Part shown: positions 24,501 to 41,765 of the stretch, one piece after another
Position numbering within the stretch: position 1 is the first letter of the stretch
Layout of the letters: the number at the start of each line of letters is the position of its first letter
Origin: Nitrospira sp. MA-1
Lineage (GTDB): Bacteria; Nitrospirota; Nitrospiria; Nitrospirales; UBA8639
Length of the DNA: 64,000 bases
Direction: 5' to 3'
Assembly: GCA_032139905.1 (NCBI GenBank)
Contig: JAQJDB010000006.1
Location: 558,001-622,000, forward strand
Program-made: the position numbers and the translations under genes
The notes under the pieces: generated by a model
What the model was told of the DNA's origin: nothing
The model's database searches: none
What the model saw: only the letters and a program-made list of their open reading frames with translations

Positions 24501-25730
24501 TTAATTGAGAATTGCATCCGGTTGCACCTGAGCAGGGTTGGTGTGGGTTGGAGTGATATGAGACAACTCTGCAAATGCAGAAATAATTTTTTCAATTTGT
24601 TTCTTCGTATGGGCTGCACTGACACTTAATCGAAGGAGGCATTCGCCGTTTGGTGTGGCAGGAGGAATCATGAGGTTGACATAAATGCCATATTCCAAGA
24701 GTTGTTGCCACATAGCAAGAGCCAATTCTCTGGTAGGGATCATCGCTGCCATAATCGGTCCGACCTCTGCCCCAAGCGTATACCCACTCTTTATTAATCC
24801 ATTATACAAATCCTGTGAATTCGTCCATAGCTGTTGGCGAAGTTCGGGGTGAGACTGGATAATGCGAATGGTTGCCCGTGTGGAAGCGACAACAGATGGA
24901 CATGGGGAGGCCGTAAAAATATAGGGACGACTGGCATAGCGGATTAACTCGAACTCTGGATGAGAACTTATACCGAATCCTCCTGTTGAGCCCAGGCTTT
25001 TACTGAATGTCCCGACGATGCAATCGACGTCCTGTTCGACGCCTGTTTCTTCCGCCAAGCCTCGTCCATGTTGGCCGAGTATGCCCAACGAATGGGCTTC
25101 GTCAACGATCAGTGTGGCTCCATACTTTTTCTTCACTTCGACGATCTCGGCCAGAGGAGCTCGATCTCCCAACATGCTATAAATGCCCTCGACAACAATT
25201 AAGGTCTGCTGGCTTCTGTCCCCCAATCGACGAAGACGTTTTTCTAAGTCTGCCACGTCATTATGCTTAAACCGGATGATTTCTGCCCCTCCAAGCCTGC
25301 ATCCATCATAAATGCTGGCATGAGAGTCCCCATCCATTAATATGGTATCCCCCGCGCCTGCAAGAGCAGAAAGGACGCCAAGATTAGCTTGGTACCCCGT
25401 GGAAAAAACGATTGCATAAGGCGCACCATAGAATTCCGCGATGGCCTTCTCAAGCTCACGGTGGCTCGCAAAAGATCCATTCGCCATCCTCGATCCCGTT
25501 GTGCCGGTCCCTTCCTGAGCAAGAGCCTGTTGACCGGCCAGAATGGCATCAGGGTGAAAGGTTAGACCTAAGTAGTTATTCGTGCCAACTAGAATAGTCG
25601 TTCGCCCGTTGATGATGGCCTCTGTTGGTGAAAGGATCTTGTCGACAGTGATATGAAAGGGGTTGACTCCACTTTTTAGCAACTCATTTCTGGCTTCTTG
25701 AATAGGAAGAAATTTGTCGAATAATGACAT
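24501..25730 (-). CDS. spt: Serine palmitoyltransferase (alpha-oxoamine synthase)
   Basis: A PLP enzyme predicted to condense serine with an acyl thioester to form 3-ketosphinganine, the first step of sphingolipid synthesis, in the cytosol. Landmarks are FDKFLPIQEARNELLKSGVNPFHITVDKILSPTEAIINGR (N-terminus close to Caulobacter-type Spt), GTNNYLGLTFHPDAI, GTGTTGSRMANGSFASHRELE, MDGDSHASIYDGCRLGGAEIIRFKHND and VDEAHSLGILGQHGRGL. The PLP lysine lies in GTFSKSLGSTGGF near residue 240. Bacterial Spt and 8-amino-7-oxononanoate synthase share this fold, but the adjacent acyl carrier protein, acyl-AMP ligase and reductase genes point to Spt. The start lies two bases after the carrier protein stop, so the two are coupled. 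Confidence 0.87.
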   Translation of the reverse strand: MSLFDKFLPIQEARNELLKSGVNPFHITVDKILSPTEAIINGRTTILVGTNNYLGLTFHPDAILAGQQALAQEGTGTTGSRMANGSFASHRELEKAIAEFYGAPYAIVFSTGYQANLGVLSALAGAGDTILMDGDSHASIYDGCRLGGAEIIRFKHNDVADLEKRLRRLGDRSQQTLIVVEGIYSMLGDRAPLAEIVEVKKKYGATLIVDEAHSLGILGQHGRGLAEETGVEQDVDCIVGTFSKSLGSTGGFGISSHPEFELIRYASRPYIFTASPCPSVVASTRATIRIIQSHPELRQQLWTNSQDLYNGLIKSGYTLGAEVGPIMAAMIPTRELALAMWQQLLEYGIYVNLMIPPATPNGECLLRLSVSAAHTKKQIEKIISAFAELSHITPTHTNPAQVQPDAILN

Positions 25731-25732
25731 GA

Positions 25733-25978
25733 TTACCCTTTCAGCAATTTCTCAATCTCTTCGCCTAGGTCCTTCACTGTTCGGATTTTGGGAAGATTGT
25801 TCAGAGGGATGGAAATATCAAAGTGATCCTCGATTTTCAAGAGAACTTGCATAACCTGCAAGGAATCTAATCCCAACTCGGCAACCAGCTCTGTTTGTTC
25901 TTTTAACCGAAAGTTCTCTTTGGCAAACGGCTTAAGGGTGTCGAACAGTTGGGGGAGAATGTCAGAATAACTTATCAT
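25733..25978 (-). CDS. Acyl carrier protein, Spt-associated
   Basis: An 81-aa acyl carrier protein. The frame is open further upstream, but the ATG at 25976-25978 (MISYSDILPQLFD) gives the normal length and is preceded by AAGAAGG five bases away. The phosphopantetheine attachment serine is in AELGLDSLQVMQVLL near residue 40, with EDHFDISIP following, a standard four-helix carrier. It sits between the reductase and spt. In Caulobacter a dedicated carrier in this position delivers the acyl group to Spt. Loading by the acyl-AMP ligase at 26995-28758 is likely. Its upstream edge is 37 bases from the reductase stop. Confidence 0.9.
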   Translation of the reverse strand: MISYSDILPQLFDTLKPFAKENFRLKEQTELVAELGLDSLQVMQVLLKIEDHFDISIPLNNLPKIRTVKDLGEEIEKLLKG

Positions 25979-26015
25979 AATAGCCTTCTTGATGAGGGAG
26001 GAGGACGGATCTGTA

Positions 26016-26960
26016 CTAATCCCTATGGGATGGCATGAGACTATCCGATGTGAACAATCGACGCAAGCCTTCTTTGAGTGAGATTTGAGGAGTCCAGCCG
26101 AGGGTCTGAGCCACCTGGGTATTGTCACAGACCCAATTAAGGTGGAGAAGTTCAGCCGCCTTCCCGCTGGTGAAAAGAGGAGTATATCTCAAGAGGTGGG
26201 AAAATATTTCATTACTTTTTCCTCCAATTTGTAGGAGGCTTGGTGGAATTTGCAAGCACAGGCGGAGGCGAGGATTGGAAATACGAAAGACATCCTCCCA
26301 GGAATATCCACCAGGGAAGCCATCATCAATCTCAAAAATTTGAGAGGGTGGGGCCTGGATTTTCAGCCAATAAAGAATAGCGTTGCAGAGATCGTCAACA
26401 TGAATCAAGGAAAATCTGGCTTGGGAAGGACCAAGTTGAATCCCTATTCCTTTGCGTAATATGGTAAAAAGTGGGAGCAGGGCACGGTCTTGCGGTCCAT
26501 AGACGGCAGGTGGACGAAAAATACTCCACTTCAGGTCCCCCGCCTCACGGGTTAAAACTGCTTCACCTTCATGTTTGCTCCAGGCATAGGGTGAAAGTGA
26601 TGGCTCACGAGCGGCGAGGGATGAGAGAAGAACAAATCGTGGGGGAGAGGAATGCGCGAGACAGGCTTGAATGATATTAGAGACTCCCATCACATTGGTC
26701 GGATAGAAGTCCTCTCGGCTAATTCCGCGAATCGCACCTGCACAATGAATGACGGCAAACGAGTCTTTGACCAGGGCTAAAAGGCTGGCAGGATTTTCCA
26801 ACCGGCATTGGACAGGTTCTATTCCGAGATTTTCGAGCTTTTGAACTTGGCGTGGAGAGCGGGCCAAACCACGGACATGCCACCCAGCTTTCTTTAAATG
26901 CTGAGCTATGACTCCCCCAATAAAACCGGAAGCCCCTGTTAGGGCGACGGTAGTTCCCAT
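26016..26960 (-). CDS. NAD(P)-dependent epimerase/dehydratase-like reductase (CerR-like)
   Basis: A 314-aa extended short-chain dehydrogenase. VALTGASGFIGGVIAQHLKKAGWHVRGLAR is the NAD(P) site (GxxGxxG), CAGAIRGISREDF follows, LLSSLAAREP carries the serine and YAWSKHEGE carries the YxxxK catalytic pair near residue 125. FRPPAVYGPQDRALLP is the usual downstream segment. Although annotated as a sugar epimerase family, a protein of this type next to spt in Caulobacter (CerR) reduces the 3-keto group of the sphingoid/ceramide intermediate. The neighbours here are acyl-AMP ligase, carrier protein and spt, so the same role is inferred. Confidence 0.77.
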   Translation of the reverse strand: MGTTVALTGASGFIGGVIAQHLKKAGWHVRGLARSPRQVQKLENLGIEPVQCRLENPASLLALVKDSFAVIHCAGAIRGISREDFYPTNVMGVSNIIQACLAHSSPPRFVLLSSLAAREPSLSPYAWSKHEGEAVLTREAGDLKWSIFRPPAVYGPQDRALLPLFTILRKGIGIQLGPSQARFSLIHVDDLCNAILYWLKIQAPPSQIFEIDDGFPGGYSWEDVFRISNPRLRLCLQIPPSLLQIGGKSNEIFSHLLRYTPLFTSGKAAELLHLNWVCDNTQVAQTLGWTPQISLKEGLRRLFTSDSLMPSHRD

Positions 26961-26994
26961 AGTGGAGGACGAGTGAGGAAAGGATAGTCCGGTC

Positions 26995-28758
26995 TTAAGC
27001 AGACCTGGCTATGGACAGCATTGGAGTGACCTCTTCCCACTGAATTCGAGTGAGAAAGTCTGCTTTGGCTCGAGATCGAGAAAGTTTTCCAGATGATGTT
27101 CGCGGGAGTGTCCTGGGGGGGATAAGTTCAATATAGCAGGGAATAGACAACTCCTTGTGAACTAAGGATCGTAGGCGCTGAACCAAGTCCTCCCGTTTTT
27201 GAGAATCCATTTCACGGCATTGCACAACCATGATGGCGATCTCATGACCGTCAGGGGAGGAAACGGAAAAAGCGGATGAATCACCAGGTCGGACTTCCGC
27301 CTGTTGTTCTGCCATGAATTCTAAATCTTGAGGCCAGATATTCCGTCCATTAATGATGATCATATCTTTGGACCGGCCAATAATGACGAGACTGTTGTTG
27401 ACCCAATAGCCGATGTCGCCCGTATTGAGCCAGCCATCGTGGGAGAGGACCTCTTCCGTCATGATTGGATCATTGAAATATCCAGTCATGGTGCTTGCCC
27501 CACGCACAAAAATTACTCCACTTTCTCGCTCATCGAGGACATCTCCGTTCATATTACGTATTTGAACTTCATATCCAGGGAGAGGAACACCGCAATTCAC
27601 AAATTTGCTGCATCGAGCCTGGTTGTCATCAGTGGAGGATGGGACAAAAGGCATGGCTAACCGGTTATTCGAGAGCTGATCTCCGTCAACCCTGTCAACC
27701 TCGAGGCCTTTGTTCAATGGAGCGAAACTAACTGCCAAAGAACATTCAGCCATCCCATAGCAAGCCAAAAATGCTTCAGATTTAAACCCGCTGGCCTTCA
27801 GGGTTTTGGCAAAACGGGAGAGGCTATCGGCACGAATTGTTTCTGCTCCAGCGCCAGCGATTCGCCAGGAGCTGAGATCATACTGTTCATTGAAATCTTC
27901 CCCAAGTCTTCGCACGCAGAGCTCGTATCCAAAGGAAGGGCTGAATGAAATTGTTGCCCGACTCTTGGTCATTAAACTCAGCCACTGACGAGGACGCATG
28001 GCAAAATCGCGTGTGCTCAAATAATCAACAGAAAGCTGTGAAGCGATTGGACCAAGAACGAATCCGACTAGTCCCATATCATGGTAAAAGGGAAGCCAGG
28101 AGACACAACGGTCGCCAGTCTGAACTTGTAAGCCATGCTGAATGATTCCGGATAGATTGGTCATCACGGCCGATTGGGTGACTTCAACGCCTCTAGGCCA
28201 ACGTGTGCTACCAGAGGTGTATTGAATATAGGCTAATTCGTGCGGCTCCAGTGGTCTGAGCGGATCATGAGTTTCTTGCAATGAGGCGAATGTTTCTGGG
28301 CCTCCGATGAGGGCCAGATCCATCTCGGCTGCTGCTTCCTCTAAAAATGGCAAAAAGCCTTCAGGTGCCATGGCGATAGAGGCTTGGCAGCTCTCGAGTA
28401 GCCGTTTAAGTTGGGTGACGTATGCCTGATGTCCCCCTAAATGCAGCGAAATAGGAAGAGGAACCGGAACAAGTCCGGCATACTGACAGGCGAAAAAGAA
28501 TCGAATGAAATCCGGGGTGGTGTCAGCAATGAGGGCCACCCGAGCGCCACGAGCTAGTCCTAATCCGTTCAGTCTTCTTGCTAGATTTTGAGCTTGTTGT
28601 TGCAGGCCGGCATATGTCAACACGTGGGTGAGTTTGCCTCTCCCTGAATAAAAATTACAGCCGGTTTCTCCTGAAGCCGCATAATCAAGGGCCTCTGAAA
28701 GGGTGGAGAAGTTCCCATGTTTAAGTCTGAGTTGGTGATGAGTTGGTGTAGCGTTCAT
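26995..28758 (-). CDS. Fatty-acyl-AMP ligase / acyl-ACP synthetase
   Basis: A 587-aa adenylating enzyme that activates a fatty acid with ATP and passes it to a carrier protein. The P-loop is YIQYTSGSTRWPRGVEVT near residue 190. SWLPFYHDMGLVG, ACYGMAECSLAVSF, MTGYFNDP, WLNTGDIGYW and GRSKDMIIINGRNIWPQDLE follow in order. The C-terminal LPRTSSGKLSRSRAK holds the A10 lysine. FYHDMGLVG and the length favour the fatty-acyl-AMP ligase group over CoA ligases. It heads the minus-strand array and is followed by the reductase, carrier protein and spt, the Caulobacter ceramide set, so it likely loads the carrier for Spt. Confidence 0.85.
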   Translation of the reverse strand: MNATPTHHQLRLKHGNFSTLSEALDYAASGETGCNFYSGRGKLTHVLTYAGLQQQAQNLARRLNGLGLARGARVALIADTTPDFIRFFFACQYAGLVPVPLPISLHLGGHQAYVTQLKRLLESCQASIAMAPEGFLPFLEEAAAEMDLALIGGPETFASLQETHDPLRPLEPHELAYIQYTSGSTRWPRGVEVTQSAVMTNLSGIIQHGLQVQTGDRCVSWLPFYHDMGLVGFVLGPIASQLSVDYLSTRDFAMRPRQWLSLMTKSRATISFSPSFGYELCVRRLGEDFNEQYDLSSWRIAGAGAETIRADSLSRFAKTLKASGFKSEAFLACYGMAECSLAVSFAPLNKGLEVDRVDGDQLSNNRLAMPFVPSSTDDNQARCSKFVNCGVPLPGYEVQIRNMNGDVLDERESGVIFVRGASTMTGYFNDPIMTEEVLSHDGWLNTGDIGYWVNNSLVIIGRSKDMIIINGRNIWPQDLEFMAEQQAEVRPGDSSAFSVSSPDGHEIAIMVVQCREMDSQKREDLVQRLRSLVHKELSIPCYIELIPPRTLPRTSSGKLSRSRAKADFLTRIQWEEVTPMLSIARSA

Positions 28759-28826
28759 TCTATCTCAAGGATTAAAGGCAATATTATTCCAAATGGTTTG
28801 CTATAAAGCATTTTATTAATTAAGCA

Positions 28827-28855
28827 ATTATAGTGCCATCATGATTTTTTGATTA
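28827..28855 (-). promoter_or_regulatory. Candidate promoter of the spt/glycan array
   Basis: On the minus strand a perfect TATAAT (28827-28832) lies in AT-rich sequence, about 70 bases before the ATG of the acyl-AMP ligase. No good -35 box is visible at 17 bases, so it may need an activator. The rest of 28759-28987 shows no gene. Confidence 0.35.
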
Positions 28856-28987
28856 ATGATTAAGAACGAAGGAAAAGTGAAAGTGAATTTTCTTATTCGG
28901 TTTAAATTGTAGTAAAAAAACCGCAATTTGAGTCTATTTTGCAACAGTCAGTTTCCGGTATATAGGTAATTGTAGCTAGATAAAAGT

Positions 28988-29419
28988 TCAGCGAATCCAG
29001 TTGTTTTTGAGGTGACTGAAAATTGTTTGGTGCACCTCTTCTGAGGTGTCATTTGAATTCTTGAGTTGAGGTGGCCCAGGCCATCCATGGTCAAAAAATT
29101 GCTGCTGAGAAAATAATCGAGGCGTGTCATACCGGGGAATGACATGAAAATGAACCTCGGGGTCAACCATCATCAACATAAGGTAATTTATTTTGCTATA
29201 GCCAAATGTGCGTGAGACACTTGTCTCAATCTCACGTATGATCCCAGGCAGTTCTTTAAATGCATCGGCACTAATTTGGGAAAACGCTGTGGCCTCCTCT
29301 CGACAAATTAATACCAGGGAGCCAAGGGTCACTTGTTGGGGGCGCAGGAGCACAACCCATTGGGAAAAATCTTTGAGACAGGTATCGGGATACCCAAATT
29401 TTTTCATTGTGGTGTTCAT
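28988..29419 (-). CDS. HIT-family protein
   Basis: A 143-aa histidine-triad protein. The signature is VDPEVHFHVIPRYDTPR near residue 95, a shortened form of the HxHxHxx nucleotide-binding loop. The N-terminus has the usual small beta-domain (QWVVLLRPQQVTLGSLVLICREE) and a helical AFKELPGIIREIE. HIT proteins hydrolyse or transfer nucleotidyl groups. It begins 383 bases from the divergent hydroxylase-like gene and ends ~230 bases before the acyl-AMP ligase. A link to lipid headgroup chemistry is possible but unproved. Confidence 0.8.
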   Translation of the reverse strand: MNTTMKKFGYPDTCLKDFSQWVVLLRPQQVTLGSLVLICREEATAFSQISADAFKELPGIIREIETSVSRTFGYSKINYLMLMMVDPEVHFHVIPRYDTPRLFSQQQFFDHGWPGPPQLKNSNDTSEEVHQTIFSHLKNNWIR

Positions 29420-29802
29420 GGACCTGCACTTATACCCAAAGAGATATTCTTGTGTCTATGAGGCAAAGAGTCTCTTCTGTCCCCATGGGCCTATATTGGC
29501 ATCCCGAGTGGCCCATCGAAATATATCACGGGTTTTATGCTAAAACCCGGTTTCAATATTACTATGCAGCTATGTTAGGCATTGATCCTGTAATGGATTG
29601 AACCAGGTTTTTGAGTGTGGGAATTAATGCATTCCGTTATAATCATTCAGGCTTTTCGATTGGAGGTATCGGTTTCCAGTTGTCTATTCTTGTGGCTTCT
29701 TCCGAAGGTTTCTATAATTGTCATAGGGGATGATCCTGAAGAATCAGGTGTGGGATGGATTGAGGGCAACAGGCAAATGAGGAAAGGGATGGAGGTTCCA
29801 GG
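29420..29802. other. Divergent intergenic region
   Basis: 383 bases between the HIT gene and the hydroxylase-like gene. A 47-codon frame from ATG 29458 (+) ends YYAAMLGIDPVMD; it is not recognised and lacks a ribosome site. Promoters for both flanking genes are expected here. Confidence 0.35.
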
Positions 29803-30537
29803 GTGCTAACCAGTCAATGGTATCGTGAAAAGTATCTCCTTGATCGCATGACGTTTCGCGATCTGATATGGGCGTACGTTTTATACCCAAGTATTCAATT
29901 ATATGGGGTGTTATTGGCCTGTAGTATCGTCGGTGCCATCGTCATTTTCGAGTACTTTCCTGTTTCTCCCCTTCACATGGCAGGAAGTATTGTTCTGACC
30001 CTGCTTGCTTATCCCTTCGTAGAATATGCTGTCCATCGGTTTATTTTACATGGGCGATACCTGTATCGGTCGCCATGGACGGCAGCCTTGTGGAAACGGA
30101 TTCACTATGATCACCACCAAGATTCCAATGATTTACGGGTGTTGTTCGGGGCGGGCTCGACCACCCTACCTACGATTGTCGTGGCCACTTTCCCTATTGG
30201 GATGAGTGTTGGAGGCTGGGTGGGGGCCGCCCTTTCTTTTGGGACAGGATTGGCGTGTTTTATGGTGTATGAACTCTGTCATTGCATGCAGCATCTGCGC
30301 GTGAATCCCAAAGTTAAGTTTTTACGGCGGATCAAGCGACATCATTTGCTGCATCATTTTCATAACGAACAAGGAAACTTTGGGATCACGAGTCTGTTTT
30401 GTGACCGGATTTTCGGTAGTGAGTATGGGAGTGCTGAGGATGTGCCGTTCAGTCAGACCGTTTCCAACCTGGGTTATGCGGATGAGGAACGATCCCACTA
30501 CCCTTGGGTGGCCCAACTATCCGAACAGAAGCCATAA
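29803..30537 (+). CDS. Fatty acid/sphingoid hydroxylase superfamily membrane protein
   Basis: A 244-aa integral membrane di-iron enzyme of the sterol desaturase/fatty acid hydroxylase superfamily. Histidine clusters are EYAVHRFILHGRYL, IHYDHHQDSND, ELCHCMQHLRVN and RHHLLHHFHNEQGNFG, and hydrophobic segments lie at ~25-75 and ~120-150. The start is GTG at 29803, chosen because GGAGG at 29791-29795 stands seven bases before it. Superfamily members hydroxylate fatty acids, sterols or the sphingoid C4/acyl C2 positions. Adjacency to spt genes and to a ceramide-synthase-like gene makes a sphingolipid hydroxylase the best guess, but the specificity cannot be read. Confidence 0.8.
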   Translation: MLTSQWYREKYLLDRMTFRDLIWAYVLYPSIQLYGVLLACSIVGAIVIFEYFPVSPLHMAGSIVLTLLAYPFVEYAVHRFILHGRYLYRSPWTAALWKRIHYDHHQDSNDLRVLFGAGSTTLPTIVVATFPIGMSVGGWVGAALSFGTGLACFMVYELCHCMQHLRVNPKVKFLRRIKRHHLLHHFHNEQGNFGITSLFCDRIFGSEYGSAEDVPFSQTVSNLGYADEERSHYPWVAQLSEQKP

Positions 30538-30636
30538 AAGGCCCATGAAGATTCGTAGTAGTGATCCTCGCATCGCCTCACGAGGCCGCACTTCCTGTAG
30601 GCGAAGGGTTCGCCAAGATGGCTGGGGAAAGGCGTT

Positions 30637-31761
30637 TTGATTCGCATTGAACCGGTCACCGACCGCGCCGGTCTCAAAGAGTTTATTCGCCTTCCCTGGA
30701 AGTTGTACCACTCAGATCCTCATTGGATTCCGCCTTTATTGGTCGAACGGCTCCATACCTTTTCCCAGAAAAATCCCTATTTTCAACATGCTCGTTGGCA
30801 ATGTTGGCTGGCTTATCGAGGACAGGAACCCGTCGGTCGAATTTCTGCCCAGATTGATGACCTGCATCTCAGTCGTTATCAGGATCGGACGGGGTTTTTT
30901 GGCCTGCTTGAAGCAGAGGAGGAGTCCAGTATCTTTCACGCGCTATTTCAGGCTGCGGAAACCTGGCTTCAGACTCAGGGGATGACGAACGTTCGTGGGC
31001 CGTTTAACCTGTCGATCAATCAGGAATGTGGTCTGTTGGTTGATGGGTTTGATTCACCGCCCATGATTATGATGGGCCACGCCATGCCTTACTACCCATA
31101 CGGTGTTGAACAAAATGCCTATGAAAAGGCCCAAGATCTTCTGGCCTATCGTATTGGAATACATTTTAGTTTTCCCCCTGGAGTTTCTCTGTTTCTCAAA
31201 AAAGCGAAAACCTCGATGCGAATTCGTCCGTTACGGCGGAAGCATCTGAATGAAGATTTAGCGATTATTAAGGATATTTTCGAAGAGGCCTGGTCAGATA
31301 ATTGGGGATTTCTTCCGTTTACCGATGCAGAATTTGCTGAGATCGGACAGCAGCTTAAGCTATTGGTTGAAGATGATTTTGTCCAGATCGCTGAAATCGA
31401 TGGTGAACCAACGGCGATGTTGGTTGCCTTTCCCAATATGCATGAGGTCATTCGAGATCTGAATGGGCATCTATTTCCATGGGGTTGGCTGAAAATCTTA
31501 TGGCGGTTGAAAGCGTCCTATCCCCGGTCGGGTCGGGTTGCCTTAATGGGCGTGCGTAAACGATTTCAATCAAGTCCGATGGGTGCGGCGATGGCCTATG
31601 GATTAATTGAAGCGGTGAGGGAAGCAGGGCTTCGAAAACAAATTCAGCATGTCGAAATGTCCTGGATTTTAGAAAATAATAAACGCATGCGTCACATTCT
31701 AGAATCCCTCGGAGCCGAACCATACAAGACGTATAGAATTTACGAGAAGCATCTTCAATGA
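30637..31761 (+). CDS. GNAT-fold acyltransferase, likely bacterial ceramide synthase
   Basis: A 374-aa protein matching the family that includes the Caulobacter ceramide synthase. The conserved N-terminus is TDRAGLKEFIRLPWKLYHSDPHWIPPLLVER, with PVGRISAQIDDLH, GFFGLLEAEEE, VRGPFNLSINQECGLLVDGFDSPPMIMM (a hallmark stretch) and a C-terminal GNAT-like half with MGVRKRFQSSPMGAAMAYGLIEA and EMSWILENNKRMRHILESLGAE. It would N-acylate the sphingoid amine with an acyl-CoA. The start is TTG at 30637 with GGGGAAAGG upstream. It sits ~100 bases after the hydroxylase and 27 before the MobA-like gene. Assigned from recalled family features, not from a search. Confidence 0.75.
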   Translation: MIRIEPVTDRAGLKEFIRLPWKLYHSDPHWIPPLLVERLHTFSQKNPYFQHARWQCWLAYRGQEPVGRISAQIDDLHLSRYQDRTGFFGLLEAEEESSIFHALFQAAETWLQTQGMTNVRGPFNLSINQECGLLVDGFDSPPMIMMGHAMPYYPYGVEQNAYEKAQDLLAYRIGIHFSFPPGVSLFLKKAKTSMRIRPLRRKHLNEDLAIIKDIFEEAWSDNWGFLPFTDAEFAEIGQQLKLLVEDDFVQIAEIDGEPTAMLVAFPNMHEVIRDLNGHLFPWGWLKILWRLKASYPRSGRVALMGVRKRFQSSPMGAAMAYGLIEAVREAGLRKQIQHVEMSWILENNKRMRHILESLGAEPYKTYRIYEKHLQ

Positions 31762-31788
31762 ATGCAGATATGTGTTTCGTGAAGCCAT

Positions 31789-32619
31789 ATGGAGCTTGAC
31801 CATCCACCTGTGACGGCCCTGGTGCTTGCTGGTGCCCGATCCGGGCGAGATCCGGTTGCCCAGATGGCAGGGGTATCAACTAAGGTCCTGGCACAGGTGG
31901 GTGGGGAACCCATGATTTCCCGTGTATTGCAGACGTTAGACCAGTCGCGCACGGTGGGGAAAAGAATATTATGCGGGCCTTCATGGGAAACAATACAAAA
32001 TAATCCGTTTCTAGGAACATTGATTGAGTCAGGAGGGGTACAGTGGGTGGAGCCTCAACAAGGTCCGAGTCTTAGTGTTGCAAGGTTTCTGGATGGTCAC
32101 CCTCAGGAATTCCCTGTTCTGGTCACGACGGCGGACCATGCCTTGTTAACGGCAGAAATGGTTGATTATTTTCTCCATGCGGCGCAGGAAAAACAGATGG
32201 ATGTGGCCGTGGGGCTGGTGCCGTATTCCTCAGTTGTGGCGTCATACCCTCAATCTAAGCGAACGGTTACCCGACTCACGGGCGGAGGGTTTTGCGGGTG
32301 TAATCTCTTTGTTCTCTGCACCCCAAAGGCTAAGCGAATGGTGGAATTTTGGAGCCAGGTTGAGCGTGAGCGCAAGCATCCCATTCGCCTGATTCGAACT
32401 CTTGGAGGGCTGGCCCTGGTCCGTTATCTATTTGGTTGGTTGTCGCTTGCGGAAGCCTTGAATCGACTTGGGCGGAAGCTCAATCTTCAGGTGCAAGAAG
32501 TGCTGCTTCCGTTTCCCGAAGCGGCTATTGATGTAGACACTCCTGAAGATCTGGCCTTGGCGGAAGCCATCTTGGCGAAACGACAGGAAGACATAGAGAA
32601 AGGCGTGGCTCCTGGCTAA
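31789..32619 (+). CDS. MobA-like nucleotidyltransferase
   Basis: A 276-aa GT-A-like NTP transferase. The N-terminal VTALVLAGARSGRDPVA is the nucleotide P-loop, changed from the usual GGxSxRMG. VSTKVLAQVGGEPMISRVL supplies the conserved lysine and 'PL(I)xRV' element. PVLVTTADHALL supplies the metal-binding DH(A). The end, AAIDVDTPEDLALAEAIL, closes the family. Such enzymes make NDP-sugars, CDP-polyols or cofactors. It follows the ceramide-synthase-like gene by 27 bases, so it is probably co-transcribed. A role in making a nucleotide-activated headgroup for a sphingolipid is plausible; nothing in the sequence fixes the substrate. Confidence 0.75.
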   Translation: MELDHPPVTALVLAGARSGRDPVAQMAGVSTKVLAQVGGEPMISRVLQTLDQSRTVGKRILCGPSWETIQNNPFLGTLIESGGVQWVEPQQGPSLSVARFLDGHPQEFPVLVTTADHALLTAEMVDYFLHAAQEKQMDVAVGLVPYSSVVASYPQSKRTVTRLTGGGFCGCNLFVLCTPKAKRMVEFWSQVERERKHPIRLIRTLGGLALVRYLFGWLSLAEALNRLGRKLNLQVQEVLLPFPEAAIDVDTPEDLALAEAILAKRQEDIEKGVAPG

Positions 32620-32688
32620 TCATGGAGGAATGGGCATGGGTGTCTTCCTCGACAATCACCTAACGTAAAAAATCGTTGGAGCCCCATT

Positions 32689-33417
32689 TCACGAGGGATG
32701 AATTTTGAACAGACGTTCAGCATGTTCTAAGTCGGATGGATTATCGATCTCAGCCCAGTTCAACCCCTTAATGCAAAAAGTGGATACATGACCCTGTTGG
32801 GCCAATTCGTCGAGGAGTGATAAGTACCATTGCTTGAGGGCCTCCGGTTTACGAATTCGTTGGTCTAGTGTTGATAGAAAGATTTTAGGTCCATTGCCCT
32901 GAAAACGGATCATGCCGATGGACTCTCCGTTCACCTGTTCGATTGGCAGGGTTTTGCCGATTCGATCCAATTGTGTGCCACGGACGATGACTTTCATGTC
33001 GTCAGCATCGTAGCAAGCTTTCTCATCGGTTACTAAGGTAATGGGCGTAGGGGGGGCCTGCAGCAGACCTTGTAGCACCGCCGATTCAAATAGGGTGTCC
33101 CCATTAATTAATATAAAATCCTGGGTCATGTCGTTTCGGGCCGCCCAACAACTCATCAAATTATCTGCCATGGCAAAAAATGGATTATAGATCGTACGGA
33201 CAGAACCGGAGGCGATATCGTCAGCCAGAAGAGCTTCGACCTTCTCGGCCCCGAACCCTACCACAATGTGAATGGAATCAATTCCCAGGCGAAGAAGTTC
33301 CTGGATTTGCCATTTCACAATTGGTTGTCCATTGACCGGAACGGTACATTTGGGTTTGTCGACTGTATGCGGGAGTAACCGTTTTCCCTGTCCAGCACTT
33401 AAGATCACGGCTTTCAT
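32689..33417 (-). CDS. NTP transferase (sugar-/polyol-phosphate cytidylyltransferase-like)
   Basis: A 242-aa nucleotidyltransferase: AVILSAGQGKRLLPHTVDKPKCTVPVNGQPIVKWQI holds the GxGxR P-loop and lysine, and FILINGDTLFES holds the metal-binding D. GLNWAEIDNPSDLEHAERLF is the C-terminal metal site. The architecture matches LicC-type phosphocholine and inositol-1-phosphate cytidylyltransferases, as well as small sugar-1-P nucleotidylyltransferases. It is on the minus strand between two plus-strand lipid genes. It could make the CDP-alcohol used by the CDP-alcohol phosphotransferase at 36000-37205. That link is inference, though archaeal inositol-phospholipid enzymes pair these two activities. 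Confidence 0.8.
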   Translation of the reverse strand: MKAVILSAGQGKRLLPHTVDKPKCTVPVNGQPIVKWQIQELLRLGIDSIHIVVGFGAEKVEALLADDIASGSVRTIYNPFFAMADNLMSCWAARNDMTQDFILINGDTLFESAVLQGLLQAPPTPITLVTDEKACYDADDMKVIVRGTQLDRIGKTLPIEQVNGESIGMIRFQGNGPKIFLSTLDQRIRKPEALKQWYLSLLDELAQQGHVSTFCIKGLNWAEIDNPSDLEHAERLFKIHPS

Positions 33418-33476
33418 CGTGGTAAGCCTCCTATCATGAGATGTTCACTGTCTATTGCTGTGTTGAGGTATGGTCG

Positions 33477-34535
33477 ATGTTAGTCAGATATCTAGTTCGA
33501 GAGGTCCTGAAGCCAACAGCTGTCGTCTGTGGCCTTTTGGTGGCCTTGTTTGCCGGATACAGTTGGGTCACATTTTTAGCCAAGGCCGTCAATGCACTTT
33601 TGCCGGCAAATATGATTCTCACGCTCATTGCGTTAAAAGTGGGAATTGCGCTTGAGGTCCTCATTCCTATTTCGTTGTATTTCGGGGTTATTTTAGGTTT
33701 TGGCCGTTTGTATACCGATTCTGAAATGAAAGCCTTTATGGCGTGTGGTGTCAATCCGTATCGGATCCTTTTGGCGATTTTTGTTCTTAGCTGTTTTGTG
33801 GGCGTGATTGTCAGCATCTTTTCTTTGTATCTTCGTCCATTGGCCTATGAGGAAAGTTATCGATTAAAGGCTGAAGGAGAGGCTGGATTTCGTTTGAGCA
33901 ATTTAGATGCCGGGCATTTTTATGAACGACGAAATGGATCCCTGGTGTTTTTTGCAGAGGGTGTCGATCAAGACCATCAAAAATTAAGTGGGGTCTTTGT
34001 TCAAAGTGAAAACGGAGATAATTTGCAAGTCTTTTCGGCAAAGACCGCTCAAGAGGAGATTGATCCCCAAAGTGGTATCTCGATTCCAGTTCTCTTTGAT
34101 GGATTCGAATATAAACTGACAAGGGAGGGGGAGATCAAGCACATTTCTGGTTTTTCACGGTTAGCAATTTATCCTCAGGAGCTTGTAGCGGAGTATAAAC
34201 GCAAGGCCGAATCCACACAAAATTTATTAAAATCTGATGCTCGCAAGGATATCGCAGAACTTCAATGGAGGTTTATCGCTCCTTTTTCGGCTATTCTCAT
34301 GGGTCTGCTAGGAGTTCCCTTGAGTCGTGCTTCTCCAAGACAAGGCAAATATGCCAAAACCTTCACAGCCACCGTAATTTTTTCAGTCTATTACTTTGCC
34401 CAGTTGATGGTGAAGACGTTGGTGGAGCAAGGCAACCTCCCCATCATTCCCGGTCTTTGGTGGATTATTCTTGGGTTAGGAGCCTTACTAGCCTATTGGC
34501 TGGCCCCCAAACGTTTCACCAGGTCTTTATCGTAG
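33477..34535 (+). CDS. lptF: LptF/LptG-family permease (LptF-like)
   Basis: An inner-membrane permease of the YjgP/YjgQ family, 352 aa from the ATG at 33477 (GAGG eight bases upstream). A longer frame starts at 33441 but adds only a cysteine-rich stub. The N-terminus LVRYLVREVLKPTAVVCGLLVALFAGY is the family start, with helices at ~12-35, 55-85, 100-130 and three near the C-terminus. The middle ~130 residues form the periplasmic beta-jellyroll (FYERRNGSLVFFAEGVDQ). MGLLGVPLSRASPRQGKYAK is the conserved loop. It partners with the LptG-like gene 95 bases downstream; LptB is not in the window. It sits in the sphingolipid neighbourhood. Confidence 0.87.
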   Translation: MLVRYLVREVLKPTAVVCGLLVALFAGYSWVTFLAKAVNALLPANMILTLIALKVGIALEVLIPISLYFGVILGFGRLYTDSEMKAFMACGVNPYRILLAIFVLSCFVGVIVSIFSLYLRPLAYEESYRLKAEGEAGFRLSNLDAGHFYERRNGSLVFFAEGVDQDHQKLSGVFVQSENGDNLQVFSAKTAQEEIDPQSGISIPVLFDGFEYKLTREGEIKHISGFSRLAIYPQELVAEYKRKAESTQNLLKSDARKDIAELQWRFIAPFSAILMGLLGVPLSRASPRQGKYAKTFTATVIFSVYYFAQLMVKTLVEQGNLPIIPGLWWIILGLGALLAYWLAPKRFTRSLS

Positions 34536-34629
34536 AAGCAGTAGTCCATGGTTTTCCAATATTCTCAGGTATTCTGACGGGATGCCTGGTAAGAGATAAA
34601 CCCCCGTCAATGGGCTTCACGATATTTTC

Positions 34630-35700
34630 ATGAAAACTCTCAATCGGTACCTGGCGGGTAGTTTACTAAAGGGATATCTTCCGGTCCTGGCGATCTTTTT
34701 GGCGGTTTTTAGTTTAATTGTTTTTGTTGAAGAACTGGATGAGGTAGGCAAAGGCCGTTATACATTTTGGAGCGCGAGTGAGTATTTGTTGCTGACCATG
34801 CCAAGCCGACTGGTGTTTTTGGCTCCGTTTGTAGCCTTATTAGGGAGTATTATGGCCTTAGGGGGGCTTGCCAATGGTTGTGAACTCATCGCAATGCAGG
34901 CCGGGGGAGTTTCTCCCTATCAAATAGCCTGGTCGGTGATGAAGGTTGGGGCATGTTTTATTGTACTCGTGGGAATTCTGGAAGAGGTTGTCAATCCTCC
35001 CCTGGACCAGGAGGCGTATTTTAAGCGATCAATGGCCCTGTCGGATTCTGGGGCCTATAAGGGAAAGCAGGGTTTCTGGTTTCGTGAAGGAAGGCGCTTC
35101 ATCAGAATTCATCAAATTCGCTACGGAGAGAGTCCGCAAGGCCTTGATATTTTTGAATTTAATGATGGCGGCCAATTGGACTTCTATATGCATGCTCAAG
35201 AGGCAGAAATTGTCAATCCTCAGAAGTGGACTCTGAAAAATATTAAAAAGCAGGTCATTCACGGATATCGTGTTTCTCAGGAGCAGTTGGCGAGCCTGGA
35301 ATGGGACTCTCCGCTCAAACAGAATGAAGTCCGGTTATTGACTCTTCCTTCTTCCACATTGGCCCCTTCGGAGCTCTACCAATACATGGAATTCTTAAAA
35401 CGTAAAAAACAAAATTTTCTGAGATATGAGTTAAGCTTTTGGGACAAAATATTTATGCCCTTGAATACCGGTCTCATGATCTTAGTGGCCATACCGTTTG
35501 TCTTCGGTCCCTTGCGAATGTCTCCAGCTGGGAAGAGGGTATTCATTGGATCCCTGGTCGGTCTGGCATATTATTTGATGACGGAAATTTCTAAACATGT
35601 TGGAATTTTGTTCGGAGCCTCTCCGTTATTGACGACGGCCGCTCCCTTCCTACTGTTGTCCCTTGTCACGTTTGTTTTGTGGCGGCGTTATCTCAATTGA
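34630..35700 (+). CDS. lptG: LptF/LptG-family permease (LptG-like)
   Basis: A 356-aa partner of the preceding permease. The N-terminus is MKTLNRYLAGSLLKGYLPVLAIFLAVFSLIVFVEELDE, then helices, and GGLANGCELIAMQAGGVSPYQIAW, the coupling-helix segment that contacts the ATPase in LptFG. The periplasmic domain (FREGRRFIRIHQIRYGE) is followed by LMILVAIPFVFGPLRMSPAGKRVFIGSLVG and two further helices. Together with LptF, LptB and LptC it extracts lipopolysaccharide from the inner membrane. The two permeases lie in a lipid cluster, so they may instead, or also, move the cluster's sphingolipid. Confidence 0.88.
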   Translation: MKTLNRYLAGSLLKGYLPVLAIFLAVFSLIVFVEELDEVGKGRYTFWSASEYLLLTMPSRLVFLAPFVALLGSIMALGGLANGCELIAMQAGGVSPYQIAWSVMKVGACFIVLVGILEEVVNPPLDQEAYFKRSMALSDSGAYKGKQGFWFREGRRFIRIHQIRYGESPQGLDIFEFNDGGQLDFYMHAQEAEIVNPQKWTLKNIKKQVIHGYRVSQEQLASLEWDSPLKQNEVRLLTLPSSTLAPSELYQYMEFLKRKKQNFLRYELSFWDKIFMPLNTGLMILVAIPFVFGPLRMSPAGKRVFIGSLVGLAYYLMTEISKHVGILFGASPLLTTAAPFLLLSLVTFVLWRRYLN

Positions 35701-35999
35701 AAAGTAGTGGAAAGTGGACATAGAGATCATGCATGATCAACGACTCTTTGGTTCCATGTGGGTGTCTGGTCCCGGTCGATGGGGCATGGGGGATATTTAT
35801 CGGCATCCCATTGATGAGGTATAAGCCATGTTGTTTGCGAATTCAGGCGTATGCTCTAGGGATTTGTTGGAATGAATTCCGATGGCAGTCATAGACCGGA
35901 TTAAGACCGCAATCAGATTTATCTCCGTCAGTTAGTAAGGGAAAGTCAGTCGACTCTATTAATATTTAATGTGTAAGGGAAATAAGGCGTGGTAGTTCA
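35701..35999. other. Intergenic region
   Basis: 299 bases between the LptG-like gene and the CDP-alcohol phosphotransferase. No gene, terminator or repeat stands out. A new promoter for the headgroup genes may lie here. Confidence 0.3.
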
Positions 36000-37205
36000 A
36001 TGACTGTGTCTGCATATATTATCAATGATCCGAATGTCCGTTTGTGGAATTTGACCTCCCGTATCCGGTATGAACGAATGTTAAGTCGATTGGGGGTTGG
36101 GAATTTTCTCAATAATCTCAGCGATCTTCCATCCGATCATTCGCTTCTTGTTATTAGAGGAGATTTTTTATTTGATGCGCGCATATTCTCCTTCCTCCTG
36201 AAACAAACCAATGTTGTCCTGGAAGTTGAGGTTCAAGCTGGGTTGCGCCCGGTTATGGCTCATGTCGATTCCACTTTAGCTTCCGCAACGTGTGAAGGGA
36301 TGCAACGAGAACACACCAGAGATGTTGCAAACTTACAATCTGTGACATTGCAAGATCTTTCAATTTCTTTTTCAAACGAATTGCGAAAAACTGATCATCC
36401 CTACGTGTTCCCCATTCGCGAAAATAACCGGGTGGCTTTGGAAGAACATTTATTTACGGGATCATATAAAGGCGTCACTGATCTGGTGACGAAGTTTCTT
36501 TGGCCTGTTCCGGCCAAATGGGCCACTCGGCTTTGTGCGGGTTGGGGGATTTCGCCTAATCAGGTGACCTCGCTGAGCTTATTACTTGTGATTGCCGCGG
36601 GAGTGTTGTTCGCGTTTGGGCAGTTTTTCTGGGGACTTGTCCTGGGCTGGATAATGACGTTCCTCGATACGGTGGACGGAAAATTAGCTCGAGTAACGGT
36701 GACCTCCAGTAAATGGGGCAATATTTTTGATCATGGCATTGATTTAATCCACCCTCCTCTTTGGTATTTAGCTTGGGGGTTGGGTCTCACCGCGTTTTCC
36801 CCTTTTCTCTCTTGGTTAACTCTGGAAATCACCTTTGGAATCATTTTGCTCGGATATGTGTTGGGACGCATGGTTGAAGGAATTTTTCAATGGTGGTTGG
36901 GGGGATTTGTCATCTTTTGTTGGAAACCGTTGGACTCCTATTTCAGGCTTGTCACGGCTCGGCGTAATCCTAATCTCATCTTCTTAACGGCTAGCCTTCT
37001 TGTTGGACGTCCCGATTTGGGTTTGGAGGCTGTGGCCATTTGGACGGTGGGCTCGACTTTGATTCTTCTGGGCAGACTCCTAATGGCGGGCTGGGGAAAA
37101 GCTCGGGTAGGTTCCCTCACTTCCTGGTTGGCTGAGATCGATCCAGTGAATCGAAATTCTTTGGCAGTGAGAATGTTTACCAATCCTCCGGTCACCATCA
37201 AATGA
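36000..37205 (+). CDS. CDP-alcohol phosphatidyltransferase with N-terminal extra domain
   Basis: A 401-aa fusion. Residues ~155-390 form the membrane CDP-alcohol phosphotransferase, whose signature D-G-x2-A-R-x8-G-x3-D-x3-D is intact in DTVDGKLARVTVTSSKWGNIFDHGID near residue 225, with helices around it. Residues 1-150 are soluble and look like a degenerate nucleotidyltransferase (RYERMLSRLGVGNFL, LLVIRGDFLFDARI), followed by LEEHLFTGSYKGVTDLVTKFLWP, the usual linker before the membrane part. Archaeal inositol-1-P cytidylyltransferase/DIPP synthase has a similar two-part design. It would transfer a phospho-alcohol between a CDP-linked lipid and a polyol, or the reverse. With spt genes nearby a phosphosphingolipid is a fair guess. 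Confidence 0.8.
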   Translation: MTVSAYIINDPNVRLWNLTSRIRYERMLSRLGVGNFLNNLSDLPSDHSLLVIRGDFLFDARIFSFLLKQTNVVLEVEVQAGLRPVMAHVDSTLASATCEGMQREHTRDVANLQSVTLQDLSISFSNELRKTDHPYVFPIRENNRVALEEHLFTGSYKGVTDLVTKFLWPVPAKWATRLCAGWGISPNQVTSLSLLLVIAAGVLFAFGQFFWGLVLGWIMTFLDTVDGKLARVTVTSSKWGNIFDHGIDLIHPPLWYLAWGLGLTAFSPFLSWLTLEITFGIILLGYVLGRMVEGIFQWWLGGFVIFCWKPLDSYFRLVTARRNPNLIFLTASLLVGRPDLGLEAVAIWTVGSTLILLGRLLMAGWGKARVGSLTSWLAEIDPVNRNSLAVRMFTNPPVTIK

Positions 37206-37258
37206 TCGTTCATGTAGATATGACATATTTGTACGTCTACCCGAACTCCCCAATGTAA

Positions 37259-38278
37259 ATGCTTCCTATCTCATCTTTGCCGTCGCTTGAGCTCGGTCGC
37301 ACCGGGTCTAAGATGCATGTGGGGATCCTTCATAATTCGCTGAGTGGTCGTAATAGGCGGAAGCCAGCTCTTTTCCAGGGAATTTACCTCAAATATCCCG
37401 AAGTGCAACGGGCTGAGGTCAGCACGCCTGCGGATATCCTGGAAGCTCTGAAGACGTTTGCCCACCGTCAGGTGAATTGTGTGGTCGTCAATGGAGGGGA
37501 TGGGACCATTCAAGCCACCATTGGGGCTTTGTTTCATCATCGTCCGTTTGCCCTCATGCCCCGGTTGGCTGTGTTGCCAGCAGGGACGGCCAATCTGATT
37601 GCGGGAGATGTGGGTTTAGGGAGATTTGAGTCACACACGCTTGAACAGTTATTGGTTCAAGCCGAAGCCATGACTCCGGGATTATGTTTTGAAACACGAC
37701 CAGTTCTTCGTATTCAATTTCCAGAAAGCCGCGAACCCCTGCATGGGATGTTTTTCGGGGCTGGGGCTATTTATCATGGCACGCAACTCGGCATTGAAAC
37801 CAAACAATCGATAGGCCGGTTAGGGGAATGGGGAGCCGGGCTGATTCTGCTGAAATTTTTATTGGCGTTGGCCTCCGGGTCCCGAAAAGGGTTGAATCCG
37901 ATCACGGTGCGTGTGGCAACTGGAGAATCAGCACCTCTCCAGCATGAGTATTTAGTCTTGTTGGTCACCACCCTGGATCGCTTATTTTTAGGGATGAAAC
38001 CGTTCTGGGGCAAGCAATCCCAGCCTCTGCGATACACGAGTCTTCGAGTGCCGTATCGCTATTTATGGCGTGCCTTGCCAACATTGTTTCGTGGGAAGAC
38101 CCACCCTTTAGCCACGACAGAACATGGCTATGTCAGTGAAAATCTCTCAAGGCTTCGTTTAGTGTTTAACAGCGGATTTGTCTTGGATGGTGAAGTGTAT
38201 GCGTCTTCCCTGCCTGAAGAGCCTTTAACCCTGGATTCTCCTGGCGAGTTGTCATTTGTGCGGTTAAAGACTGAATAA
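37259..38278 (+). CDS. Diacylglycerol kinase-family lipid kinase
   Basis: A 339-aa protein of the DAGK/sphingosine-kinase/ceramide-kinase superfamily. VNGGDGTIQATIGALF near residue 80 is the GGDGT nucleotide loop, LPAGTANLIAGDVGL is the second conserved element (PxGTxNxxA), and GMFFGAGAIYHGTQLGIETKQ is the third. The C-terminus RLVFNSGFVLDGEVYASS holds the DGE motif. It phosphorylates a lipid hydroxyl using ATP at the cytosolic face of the inner membrane. The ATG at 37259 starts a hydrophilic extension; the Met at 37313 (MHVGILHN) is closer to the family start. The setting suggests diacylglycerol, sphingoid base or ceramide as substrate. Confidence 0.85.
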   Translation: MLPISSLPSLELGRTGSKMHVGILHNSLSGRNRRKPALFQGIYLKYPEVQRAEVSTPADILEALKTFAHRQVNCVVVNGGDGTIQATIGALFHHRPFALMPRLAVLPAGTANLIAGDVGLGRFESHTLEQLLVQAEAMTPGLCFETRPVLRIQFPESREPLHGMFFGAGAIYHGTQLGIETKQSIGRLGEWGAGLILLKFLLALASGSRKGLNPITVRVATGESAPLQHEYLVLLVTTLDRLFLGMKPFWGKQSQPLRYTSLRVPYRYLWRALPTLFRGKTHPLATTEHGYVSENLSRLRLVFNSGFVLDGEVYASSLPEEPLTLDSPGELSFVRLKTE

Positions 38279-38280
38279 CT

Positions 38281-39237
38281 GTGATGGATGGCTCCCCAAC
38301 AGTCCTCGAGGTCGTGAGCCAGCCGAGCGCTCGACCCATTCCTGTGCCTATTCAAGCAGCGGGAAATTTCCTGGCTAAAAAATACGGGAATGCTGTCCAA
38401 GGAATCTTATTGTATGGCTCCTGCCTGCGGGCGGGAACGGATCAAGACGGATTAGTGGATTGTTATGTCATTGTGGATCAGTATGCTTCGGTCTACCAGT
38501 CTGTTTGGTTGGCCCTCCTCAATCGTTGGCTTCCACCAAACGTGTTCTATGGAGAAGTGAACCTGGAAGGACGGATTGTTCGAATGAAGTATGCCGTGCT
38601 CTCGTTAGGGGATTTTGAGCGAAGTGTGACTTCAAAATGGTTTCATTCATACTTTTGGGGACGCTTTGCGCAACCGACGGCCGTGATGGCCAGTCCGAGC
38701 CACACGATAAGTCAACGGATTATTTCAGGCTTGGGACGGGCGGTCCTGACATTTTTGGGGAATGTTGTTCCTCAAATGCCGCAACAATTTTCTGCCAAAG
38801 ATGCATGGAGTATTGGGTTGGCCCTCAGTTATAGCGCCGAATTACGTGCCGAATCAAAAGGGCGAATCGCCACATTGTGGGACAGTAACCAAGCCTATTA
38901 TGAACAAGTCGCACATGCGGCGTTTTCAGCCAATTTCCCAAAGATCAAGGTCATTCAGGGGAATGACATAATCATGTATGAGATGGAATATTCCAGGTGG
39001 GACCACATGAAGAATCGCATAGCCTGGATTGTTCGGAAAGTGCAGGGGAAGGTGTTATCTATTTTGCGGTTGATGAAAGCGGCCTTTACGTTTCAGGGAG
39101 GGGCGGACTACCTCATCTGGAAAATCGAGCGGCATTCCGGAGTGAAAATCGAATTGACCCCCACCCAGCGTCGGCATCCCATTTGGGCCGGACTTACGAC
39201 ATTCTGGCGCCTCTATCGCAAAGGGGCCTTCCGGTAA
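38281..39237 (+). CDS. Tam41-like nucleotidyltransferase (phosphatidate cytidylyltransferase-like)
   Basis: A 318-aa protein starting at GTG 38281, two bases after the lipid kinase stop, so it is tightly coupled to it. The nucleotidyltransferase core is AVQGILLYGSCLR followed by GLVDCYVIVD, the GS...DxD-type metal site near residues 45-65. WLPPNVFYGEVNLEGRIVRMKYAVLSL and YFWGRFAQPTAVMASP are typical of the mitochondrial Tam41 family, which makes CDP-diacylglycerol. It probably converts the phospholipid product of the kinase to a CDP-lipid for the CDP-alcohol phosphotransferase. If the kinase acts on ceramide, the product would be a CDP-ceramide, which would be novel. This is inference from order. 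Confidence 0.68.
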   Translation: MMDGSPTVLEVVSQPSARPIPVPIQAAGNFLAKKYGNAVQGILLYGSCLRAGTDQDGLVDCYVIVDQYASVYQSVWLALLNRWLPPNVFYGEVNLEGRIVRMKYAVLSLGDFERSVTSKWFHSYFWGRFAQPTAVMASPSHTISQRIISGLGRAVLTFLGNVVPQMPQQFSAKDAWSIGLALSYSAELRAESKGRIATLWDSNQAYYEQVAHAAFSANFPKIKVIQGNDIIMYEMEYSRWDHMKNRIAWIVRKVQGKVLSILRLMKAAFTFQGGADYLIWKIERHSGVKIELTPTQRRHPIWAGLTTFWRLYRKGAFR

Positions 39238-40895: not shown

Positions 40896-41765
40896 TCACG
40901 GACGGGTTAAAGAAGACTGTGGATCGTGTTGCTCCCTAAAATTCTTCGGGGCCAGTCCCTGAGTAAAGGAGTGGCTCCGCTGATGATTGTAAAACCGCTC
41001 AATGTAGTCAAAAATATCGGCGCGGGCCTCTGCCCGGGTTTGGTACTGCCGCCGATGGACTCGCTCTCGTTTGAGGAGGCCAAAGAAACTCTCTGCCACG
41101 GCATTGTCATAACAACTTCCCACGCCACTCATACTGCTGACAATCCCATGAGCCTGGAGAAAGGCTTGAAACTCCTGTGAGGTATACTGGGTGCCTCGGT
41201 CGGAATGCAGGATGACAGGGGCCGCACTCGTCCGCTGCCACACGGCCATCAGCACGGCTTGGAGGACCAGGTCCCGTCCCAGTTGTGGCTGCATCGACCA
41301 CCCAATCACTTGCCGAGAGAACAAATCGAGCACCACCGCCAAGTACAGCCAGCCTTCTTGCGTGGGAATATAGGTGATATCCGTCACCCATTTGGCATTC
41401 GGACCTGGGGCTGAAAAATCCCGGGCCAACTGATTCGTGATTCCAGCCGGTCGGTCTCCAGATCTCCGCCGTTTCCAACGCGTGGGAGCAGGAATCCCTC
41501 GCAACCGCTCCCGTTGCATTAAACGGGCAACACGATGTTTCCCACAGCCCTCGCCTTGCCTGCGTAACACCTGCCAGATCTTCGGGCTCCCATAGACCCC
41601 ATCACTGTCTGCATGGATGATGCGAATGGCGGCCGTCAGGCGCTGACAGTCTTGAGCCCAGGGACTCGGAGAGCGGCGCTGCCGGGCATAAAACCCACTC
41701 GGGGAGACGTGGAGGAGACGACACATCAGACGCAGAGGAAACATGGTGCGACAACGTTGAATCAT
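40896..41765 (-). CDS. IS3-family transposase OrfB (DDE integrase)
   Basis: A 289-aa transposase with a helix-turn-helix-like N-terminus (FPLRLMCRLLHVSPSGFYARQ), an HTH_21 region (DSDGVYGSPKIWQVLRRQG) and an rve integrase core. The DDE residues are in WVTDITYI (first D), LHSDRGTQYTSQEF (second D) and SCYDNAVAESFFGLLKRE (E). YNHQRSHSFTQGLAPKNF is the typical C-terminal end. Intact and probably active. In IS3 elements OrfB is made as an OrfAB fusion by -1 frameshifting; its frame here begins nine bases after the OrfA stop, and the extended open frame could allow that. Confidence 0.93.
   Translation of the reverse strand: MIQRCRTMFPLRLMCRLLHVSPSGFYARQRRSPSPWAQDCQRLTAAIRIIHADSDGVYGSPKIWQVLRRQGEGCGKHRVARLMQRERLRGIPAPTRWKRRRSGDRPAGITNQLARDFSAPGPNAKWVTDITYIPTQEGWLYLAVVLDLFSRQVIGWSMQPQLGRDLVLQAVLMAVWQRTSAAPVILHSDRGTQYTSQEFQAFLQAHGIVSSMSGVGSCYDNAVAESFFGLLKRERVHRRQYQTRAEARADIFDYIERFYNHQRSHSFTQGLAPKNFREQHDPQSSLTRP

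Follow-up and report, generated by a model that had tools for sequence, protein, structure and literature searches.

Which lipid would be made by a sphingolipid gene cluster of a Nitrospira-like genome, and where would it be sent? The cluster lies in Nitrospira sp. MA-1 (assembly GCA_032139905.1, contig JAQJDB010000006.1), within a 64,000-nucleotide stretch (positions 558,001 to 622,000) referred to here as the window, where its genes occupy about 17 kb as intact open reading frames (ORFs). An earlier note on this DNA had proposed a likely complete Caulobacter-type pathway to ceramide. Gene-by-gene comparison with the Caulobacter sp. Root343 genome, the reference for orthology, found counterparts of all five ceramide genes (spt, acpR, cerR, aasR and bcerS), together with those of the head-group and export genes (Table 1). 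We consider it likely that the cluster is a complete Caulobacter-type phosphosphingolipid locus, which would convert ceramide to an anionic lipid resembling ceramide-(poly)phosphoglycerate and export it through a dedicated Lpt machine. This reading is based on the match of Spt to the curated serine palmitoyltransferase (SPT) model and its place in the phylogeny, the presence of the Caulobacter counterparts in one cluster, the retained CpgD residues, synteny, the distribution of CpgA, and the co-occurrence and grouping of the Lpt pair. Gene content, homology, conserved motifs, synteny and co-inheritance were directly observed.

Sphingolipid genes are already known from many phyla (PMC11334938), and the backbone alone would therefore be unsurprising. 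In the literature searched, no description was found of a full set of head-group and export genes from beyond the Proteobacteria, and among the papers listed Nitrospira sphingolipids appeared only as incidental co-mentions. The main text of a Black Sea survey covering 38 phyla makes no mention of Nitrospirota, a listing in its supplement being possible (PMC11334938). If the reading holds, an anionic, possibly lipopolysaccharide (LPS)-supporting sphingolipid of Proteobacteria would also be made in the Nitrospira-like branch, whose members are environmentally important and whose envelope lipids are little studied. Lipid chemists would have a definite compound to seek, with cluster-free sister species as natural controls.

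The predicted ceramide backbone

The minus-strand adjacency of acyl-AMP ligase, epimerase-type reductase, acyl carrier protein (ACP) and Spt-type synthase described in the earlier note was recovered as intact ORFs in the order aasR-cerR-acpR-spt, as in Caulobacter, and both the GNAT-type gene and the hydroxylase-type gene were confirmed across the divergent gap. None of the genes it named was broken. The GNAT protein, which it had likened to bacterial ceramide synthase, aligned with Caulobacter CerS over 375 aa and had no match in the PDB.

Spt exceeded the cut-off of the NCBIfam SPT model NF047599 (624.8 bits, cut-off 500) and fell below those of the bioF (345.2 bits, cut-off 426), KBL and ALAS models. 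The closest solved structures were SPTs (PDB 2x8u, E = 4.7e-139; 2jg2, E = 6e-133), with weaker matches to KBL (E = 7e-68) and to cysteate-C-fatty acyltransferase (E = 2e-59). Spt was 57% identical to its Root343 counterpart and 38% identical to the single other oxoamine synthase of the genome. In a maximum-likelihood tree of 39 sequences, it was placed within the SPTs, separated from BioF, KBL and the paralogues at 100/96, and grouped with gamma- and betaproteobacterial SPTs at 96/99. A firm grouping with BioF, named in the earlier note as the genomic result that would refute its ceramide pathway, was thus looked for and not found, and model scores, PDB matches and tree together ruled out both BioF and KBL. 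By these sequence comparisons, the oxoamine synthase of the window belongs to the curated SPT family.

The reactions, all of which we infer for this organism with roles taken from Caulobacter, would begin with AasR charging AcpR with a fatty acid. Spt would condense the acyl chain with serine, after which N-acylation by bCerS and reduction by CerR would give dihydroceramide, and the Scs7-like enzyme would probably 2-hydroxylate the N-acyl chain. The latter carries the His-rich boxes HX4H, HX2HH and HHX2HH, and its only PDB matches were to SCS7, the enzyme that 2-hydroxylates ceramide fatty acids in yeast. Across sphingolipid clusters the hydroxylase slot holds unrelated enzymes, being Scs7-like in the window and in Roseomonas, an LpxO-like Asp/Asn beta-hydroxylase in Pseudomonas and of fatty acid desaturase type in Diaphorobacter.

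The predicted head group and the CpgC step

By gene order and description, the Caulobacter locus consists of AasR, CerR, ACP and Spt (CC_1165-1162), CpgC (CC_1161), the ceramide kinase CpgB (CC_1160), CpgA (CC_1159), a HIT protein (CC_1157), LptF2/G2, CerS (CC_1154), CC_1153 and CpgD (CC_1152) (PMC11324152, PMC12275187, PMC10331486). The window shares with this locus of Caulobacter crescentus (CC_1152-CC_1168), which specifies ceramide-phosphoglycerate (CPG) and CPG2, the five ceramide genes, CpgA to CpgD, CC_1153, HIT and LptF2/LptG2. The earlier note, which extended to position 39237, was right about the ceramide genes and incomplete beyond them, leaving CC_1153, CpgD, LptF2, LptG2, CpgA, CpgB and CpgC uninterpreted. 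The two loci differ in phylum, in the hydroxylase (Scs7-like in the window, DesA-like in Caulobacter) and in the Lpt pair, which in the window is of gammaproteobacterial type.

In the proposed scheme, CpgB would phosphorylate ceramide, CpgC, probably through CDP-ceramide, would lead to ceramide-phosphoglycerate, and CpgD (supplying CDP-glycerate) with CpgA would extend this to CPG2. The head group is thereby probably charged, as in Caulobacter. CpgD residues R16, K26, N90, N110 and D112 were invariant across the window protein and its homologues in the alignment, while S170 and W201, one column off in Root343 numbering, were seen within conserved ESIG and WYLS motifs. Crystallographic work on CpgD, which addressed CTP and glycerate binding, names R16, N90, N110, S170 and W201 (PMC13228409), and an earlier CpgD paper adds K26 and D112. 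CpgA possesses the full CDP-alcohol transferase motif D-x2-DG-x2-AR-x8-G-x3-D-x3-D, and CC_1153 is required for CPG2 in Caulobacter.

An unlikely alternative keeps the ceramide backbone and its export and changes the head group, with CpgD and CpgA using another phospho-alcohol (inositol or choline), or with glycosylation by the ELM1/GtrOC1-type protein dominating. The best PDB match of CpgA was phosphatidylinositol synthase, CpgD falls in the LicC/IMPCT family, and a glycosyltransferase gene adjoins spt. However, CpgD shares 48% identity with its Caulobacter counterpart and retains the glycerate-contacting N90, N110 and S170, whereas LicC carries Asp at the position of N110 in the alignment.

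Several points weigh against a complete phosphosphingolipid locus. CerR and CpgB are only 32% and 30% identical to their Caulobacter counterparts, and the activities of Caulobacter CpgC and CpgA are themselves not established (PMC12275187, PMC13228409). The window cluster contains no ORF for a metallophosphoesterase, the phosphatase type of CC_1158; in Caulobacter CC_1158 helps, yet is dispensable for CPG2. A second LptC and flippase genes were likewise not found in the cluster, the rest of the genome not having been searched for them.

In Caulobacter the CpgC step is said to run 'via an unidentified mechanism'. In an alignment of 13 CpgC family members, a nucleotidyltransferase-like motif, YGS-x2-R followed by D-x-Y, was invariant, and the family profile matched a nucleotidyltransferase over its first 70 positions (E = 0.002). 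The middle third, positions 87-224 of the profile, was remotely similar to the solved structure 6ig2 of Tam41, which acts in mitochondria as CTP:phosphatidate cytidylyltransferase (E = 0.03 in hmmsearch), and hhalign against a 136-residue Tam41 stretch gave 85.6%, compared with 0.2% for a control. The window CpgC scored 19.2 bits against Pfam PF09139, under the cut-off of 24. PF09139 matched five of the 13 members at E <= 1 (best E = 4.6e-6), and one of seven homologues checked singly, which at 22.7 bits also stayed under the cut-off. A single-sequence AlphaFold model of CpgC had a pLDDT of 38.7 and was not used. We tentatively propose, at somewhat short of even confidence, that CpgC is a Tam41-like CTP:ceramide-1-phosphate cytidylyltransferase, which would form CDP-ceramide from ceramide-1-phosphate and CTP; it would differ from Tam41 in its lipid, ceramide-1-phosphate being expected in place of phosphatidate. 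The CDP-ceramide would then serve as substrate for a CDP-alcohol phosphotransferase, CpgA for example.

If true, this would fill the step left unexplained in the Caulobacter work, and a phosphosphingolipid route via CDP-ceramide would parallel that via CDP-diacylglycerol in phospholipid synthesis. No paper on CDP-ceramide as a nucleotide-activated sphingolipid was found in the literature searched, and the remote Tam41 match renders an open enzymatic step testable. In G087, a distant genome of the same phylum, CpgA and CpgC are neighbours and the 20 kb read gave no match to CpgB, an arrangement that fits the maker and the user of a CDP-lipid. CPG forms in Caulobacter without CpgA, and the transferase for the first head group would therefore remain missing under the CDP-ceramide proposal.

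Two observations concern these genes elsewhere. In G087 (L100 6613-13452), CpgA, CpgC and a metallophosphoesterase immediately follow a reverse transcriptase and an Mtd-type variable protein, resembling a diversity-generating retroelement. In G137 (L102 1-2612, L041 17347-19242), cpgA is apparently tandem-duplicated, one copy lying near a contig end and the second spanning the end and start of the contig.

Probable export of the lipid and inheritance of the locus

The genome contains two LptF/LptG pairs. Nine cluster-bearing genomes of the order had four LptF/G family matches each (three in one 91%-complete genome), while 12 cluster-free relatives always had exactly two, so that the second pair tracks the cluster in 9/9 genomes against 0/12. 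A joint tree placed the window LptF and LptG each with its counterparts from the sphingolipid clusters of Gammaproteobacteria (100 and 99), apart from the housekeeping pair. LptF2 and LptG2 would extract the anionic lipid from the inner membrane so that it could reach the outer membrane, to which the cluster probably ships its product, and their strict co-inheritance offers comparative support for the proposed dedicated bacterial sphingolipid exporter. That the pair is instead a spare LPS permease at an incidental location is improbable: curated models label it LptF/LptG and LpxC is encoded in the genome, but the pair is present exactly with the cluster and groups with the proteobacterial sphingolipid-cluster permeases.

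The least probable alternative, a sphingolipid analogue of 1-deoxyceramide or sulfonolipid type made by an oxoamine synthase taking alanine, glycine or cysteate, can draw on the fold class common to these synthases and on the 1-deoxyceramides inferred for Black Sea bacteria (PMC11334938), but the SPT equivalog model was passed, the match to the cysteate enzyme (E = 2e-59) compares with 5e-139 for SPT, and a ceramide kinase would require the 1-hydroxyl group.

Among 396 sampled genomes of the host phylum, bCerS homologues were present in 164. The cluster type of the window occurred in 14 (bCerS identity 56-100%), comprising all five genomes of the genus, five others of the family and four others of the order, and full-length CpgA was confined to these 14 and one distant genome. 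Gene order was conserved in most of them where the contig permits; in two of the four order-level loci (L044 and L046) only bCerS and the two nucleotidyltransferases stay together. The remaining bCerS homologues (about 150 of the 396 genomes, identity <=40%) form a second, divergent type, in which Spt and CerR mostly adjoin bCerS in the loci read (L048-L065, from deep genomes of the phylum) and the Spts make up a clade of their own next to Bacteroidota SPT. In one such locus (L055), the neighbours were genes for enolase, an M48 peptidase and cytochrome c assembly, and head-group genes were absent.

In a concatenated quick tree of the five ceramide proteins, the Nitrospira-like cluster formed one clade (97), adjacent to the gammaproteobacterial one. 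The affinity of Spt and the Lpt pair to sphingolipid clusters of Gammaproteobacteria makes an ancient transfer between phyla likely; a single event would fit best, its direction being unproven. The G+C content of the cluster equals that of its surroundings (48%), and composition is therefore uninformative on transfer.

Plasmid pBYT5-2 of Pseudomonas sp. BYT-5 (L068) carries the same gene set in the same divergent layout as the window, with fatty acyl-AMP ligase (FAAL)-CerR-ACP-Spt opposite bCerS-CC_1153-LptF-LptG-CpgB-CpgC, and CpgA, CpgD and an ELM1 gene nearby. It differs from the window in being plasmid-borne, in having the LpxO-like enzyme in place of the Scs7-like one, in the presence of a metallophosphoesterase, and in that no HIT gene was found. 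The yghO region of E. coli KE47 (L067 7341-15125) shares Spt, ACP, CerR, FAAL, bCerS (YghO) and an LptF/G pair of the same type, whereas CpgA to CpgD were not found there and YghR/S/T-like ATP-binding proteins and a flippase-like protein are present instead.

Layout and surroundings of the cluster

The grouping of these genes is far beyond chance: their order is kept in genomes of the same genus and order, and Caulobacter sp. Root343, E. coli, Pseudomonas, Diaphorobacter and Roseomonas also have them in clusters. In the minus-strand operon, which is led by the HIT gene, the intergenic gaps from aasR to spt are 2-37 bp, and a promoter scan of the divergent region gave no excess over shuffled sequences. 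The CpgD gene lies on the minus strand amid plus-strand genes, between the CC_1153 homologue and LptF2.

Table 1. Genes of the sphingolipid cluster in window coordinates, with functions predicted from sequence; identities to Caulobacter refer to Caulobacter sp. Root343. The last row gives positions within the named loci.
Feature	Position	Strand	Evidence
ELM1/GtrOC1-type putative glycosyltransferase, accessory	22019..24439	-	Pfam PF06258 E 2e-59; adjoins spt; likewise next to the Pseudomonas and Diaphorobacter clusters
Spt, serine palmitoyltransferase (predicted: L-serine + acyl-ACP -> 3-oxosphinganine)	24501..25730	-	NCBIfam NF047599, PDB 2x8u, tree, Caulobacter homology
AcpR-type acyl carrier protein	25733..25978	-	Pfam PF00550 E 7e-10; phosphopantetheine Ser in DSL motif; flanked by cerR and spt, like its Caulobacter counterpart; 39% to Caulobacter ACP
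CerR-type SDR reductase	26016..26960	-	Pfam Epimerase; same position as Caulobacter CerR, 32%
AasR, fatty acyl-AMP ligase / acyl-ACP synthetase	26995..28758	-	NCBIfam NF006624 788.9 bits (cut-off 600); 45% to Caulobacter AasR
HIT-family protein, CC_1157 homologue, motif HFHV[IFL]PRY	28988..29419	-	42% to Caulobacter gene
Scs7/FA2H-like N-acyl chain hydroxylase (predicted)	29803..30537	+	Pfam PF04116 E 1e-21; PDB SCS7 E 4e-12
bCerS, GNAT-type bacterial ceramide synthase	30637..31761	+	44% over 375 aa to Caulobacter CerS; 49% to E. coli YghO
CC_1153-type MobA-like nucleotidyltransferase	31789..32619	+	Pfam NTP_transf_3; 38% to Caulobacter gene adjoining bcerS
CpgD, CTP:phosphoglycerate cytidylyltransferase (predicted), LicC-like	32689..33417	-	48% to Caulobacter CpgD; active-site residues
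LptF2, dedicated export permease (predicted)	33441..34535 (start possibly 33477)	+	NCBIfam TIGR04407 above cut-off; tree
LptG2, dedicated export permease (predicted)	34630..35700	+	NCBIfam TIGR04408 above cut-off; tree
CpgA, CDP-alcohol phosphotransferase	36000..37205	+	Pfam PF01066; full catalytic motif; 42% to Caulobacter CpgA
CpgB, ceramide kinase (predicted), DAGK family	37259..38278	+	Pfam PF00781; GGDGT at residue 79; 30% to Caulobacter CpgB
CpgC, proposed CTP:ceramide-1-phosphate cytidylyltransferase, remotely Tam41-like	38281..39237	+	33% to Caulobacter CpgC, E 2e-42
Hydroxylase-slot genes (window gene as above)	L068 24146..24913; L069 4940..6055; L070 13192..13971		

The HIT protein has an invariant motif of HFHV[IFL]PRY type in which the third His of the triad is replaced, and it is retained in the Nitrospira-like, Caulobacter, Roseomonas and Diaphorobacter sphingolipid clusters; Caulobacter CC_1157 has been called probably unrelated to sphingolipids. 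Shortly beyond the cluster lies an IS3-type transposase pair (OrfA/OrfB-like, 40896-42061). Elsewhere in the window, two near-identical lipoprotein-like ORFs (7685-8455 and 13737-14507) stand beside RHS-like and ankyrin-repeat ORFs, apparently as the result of a recent duplication.

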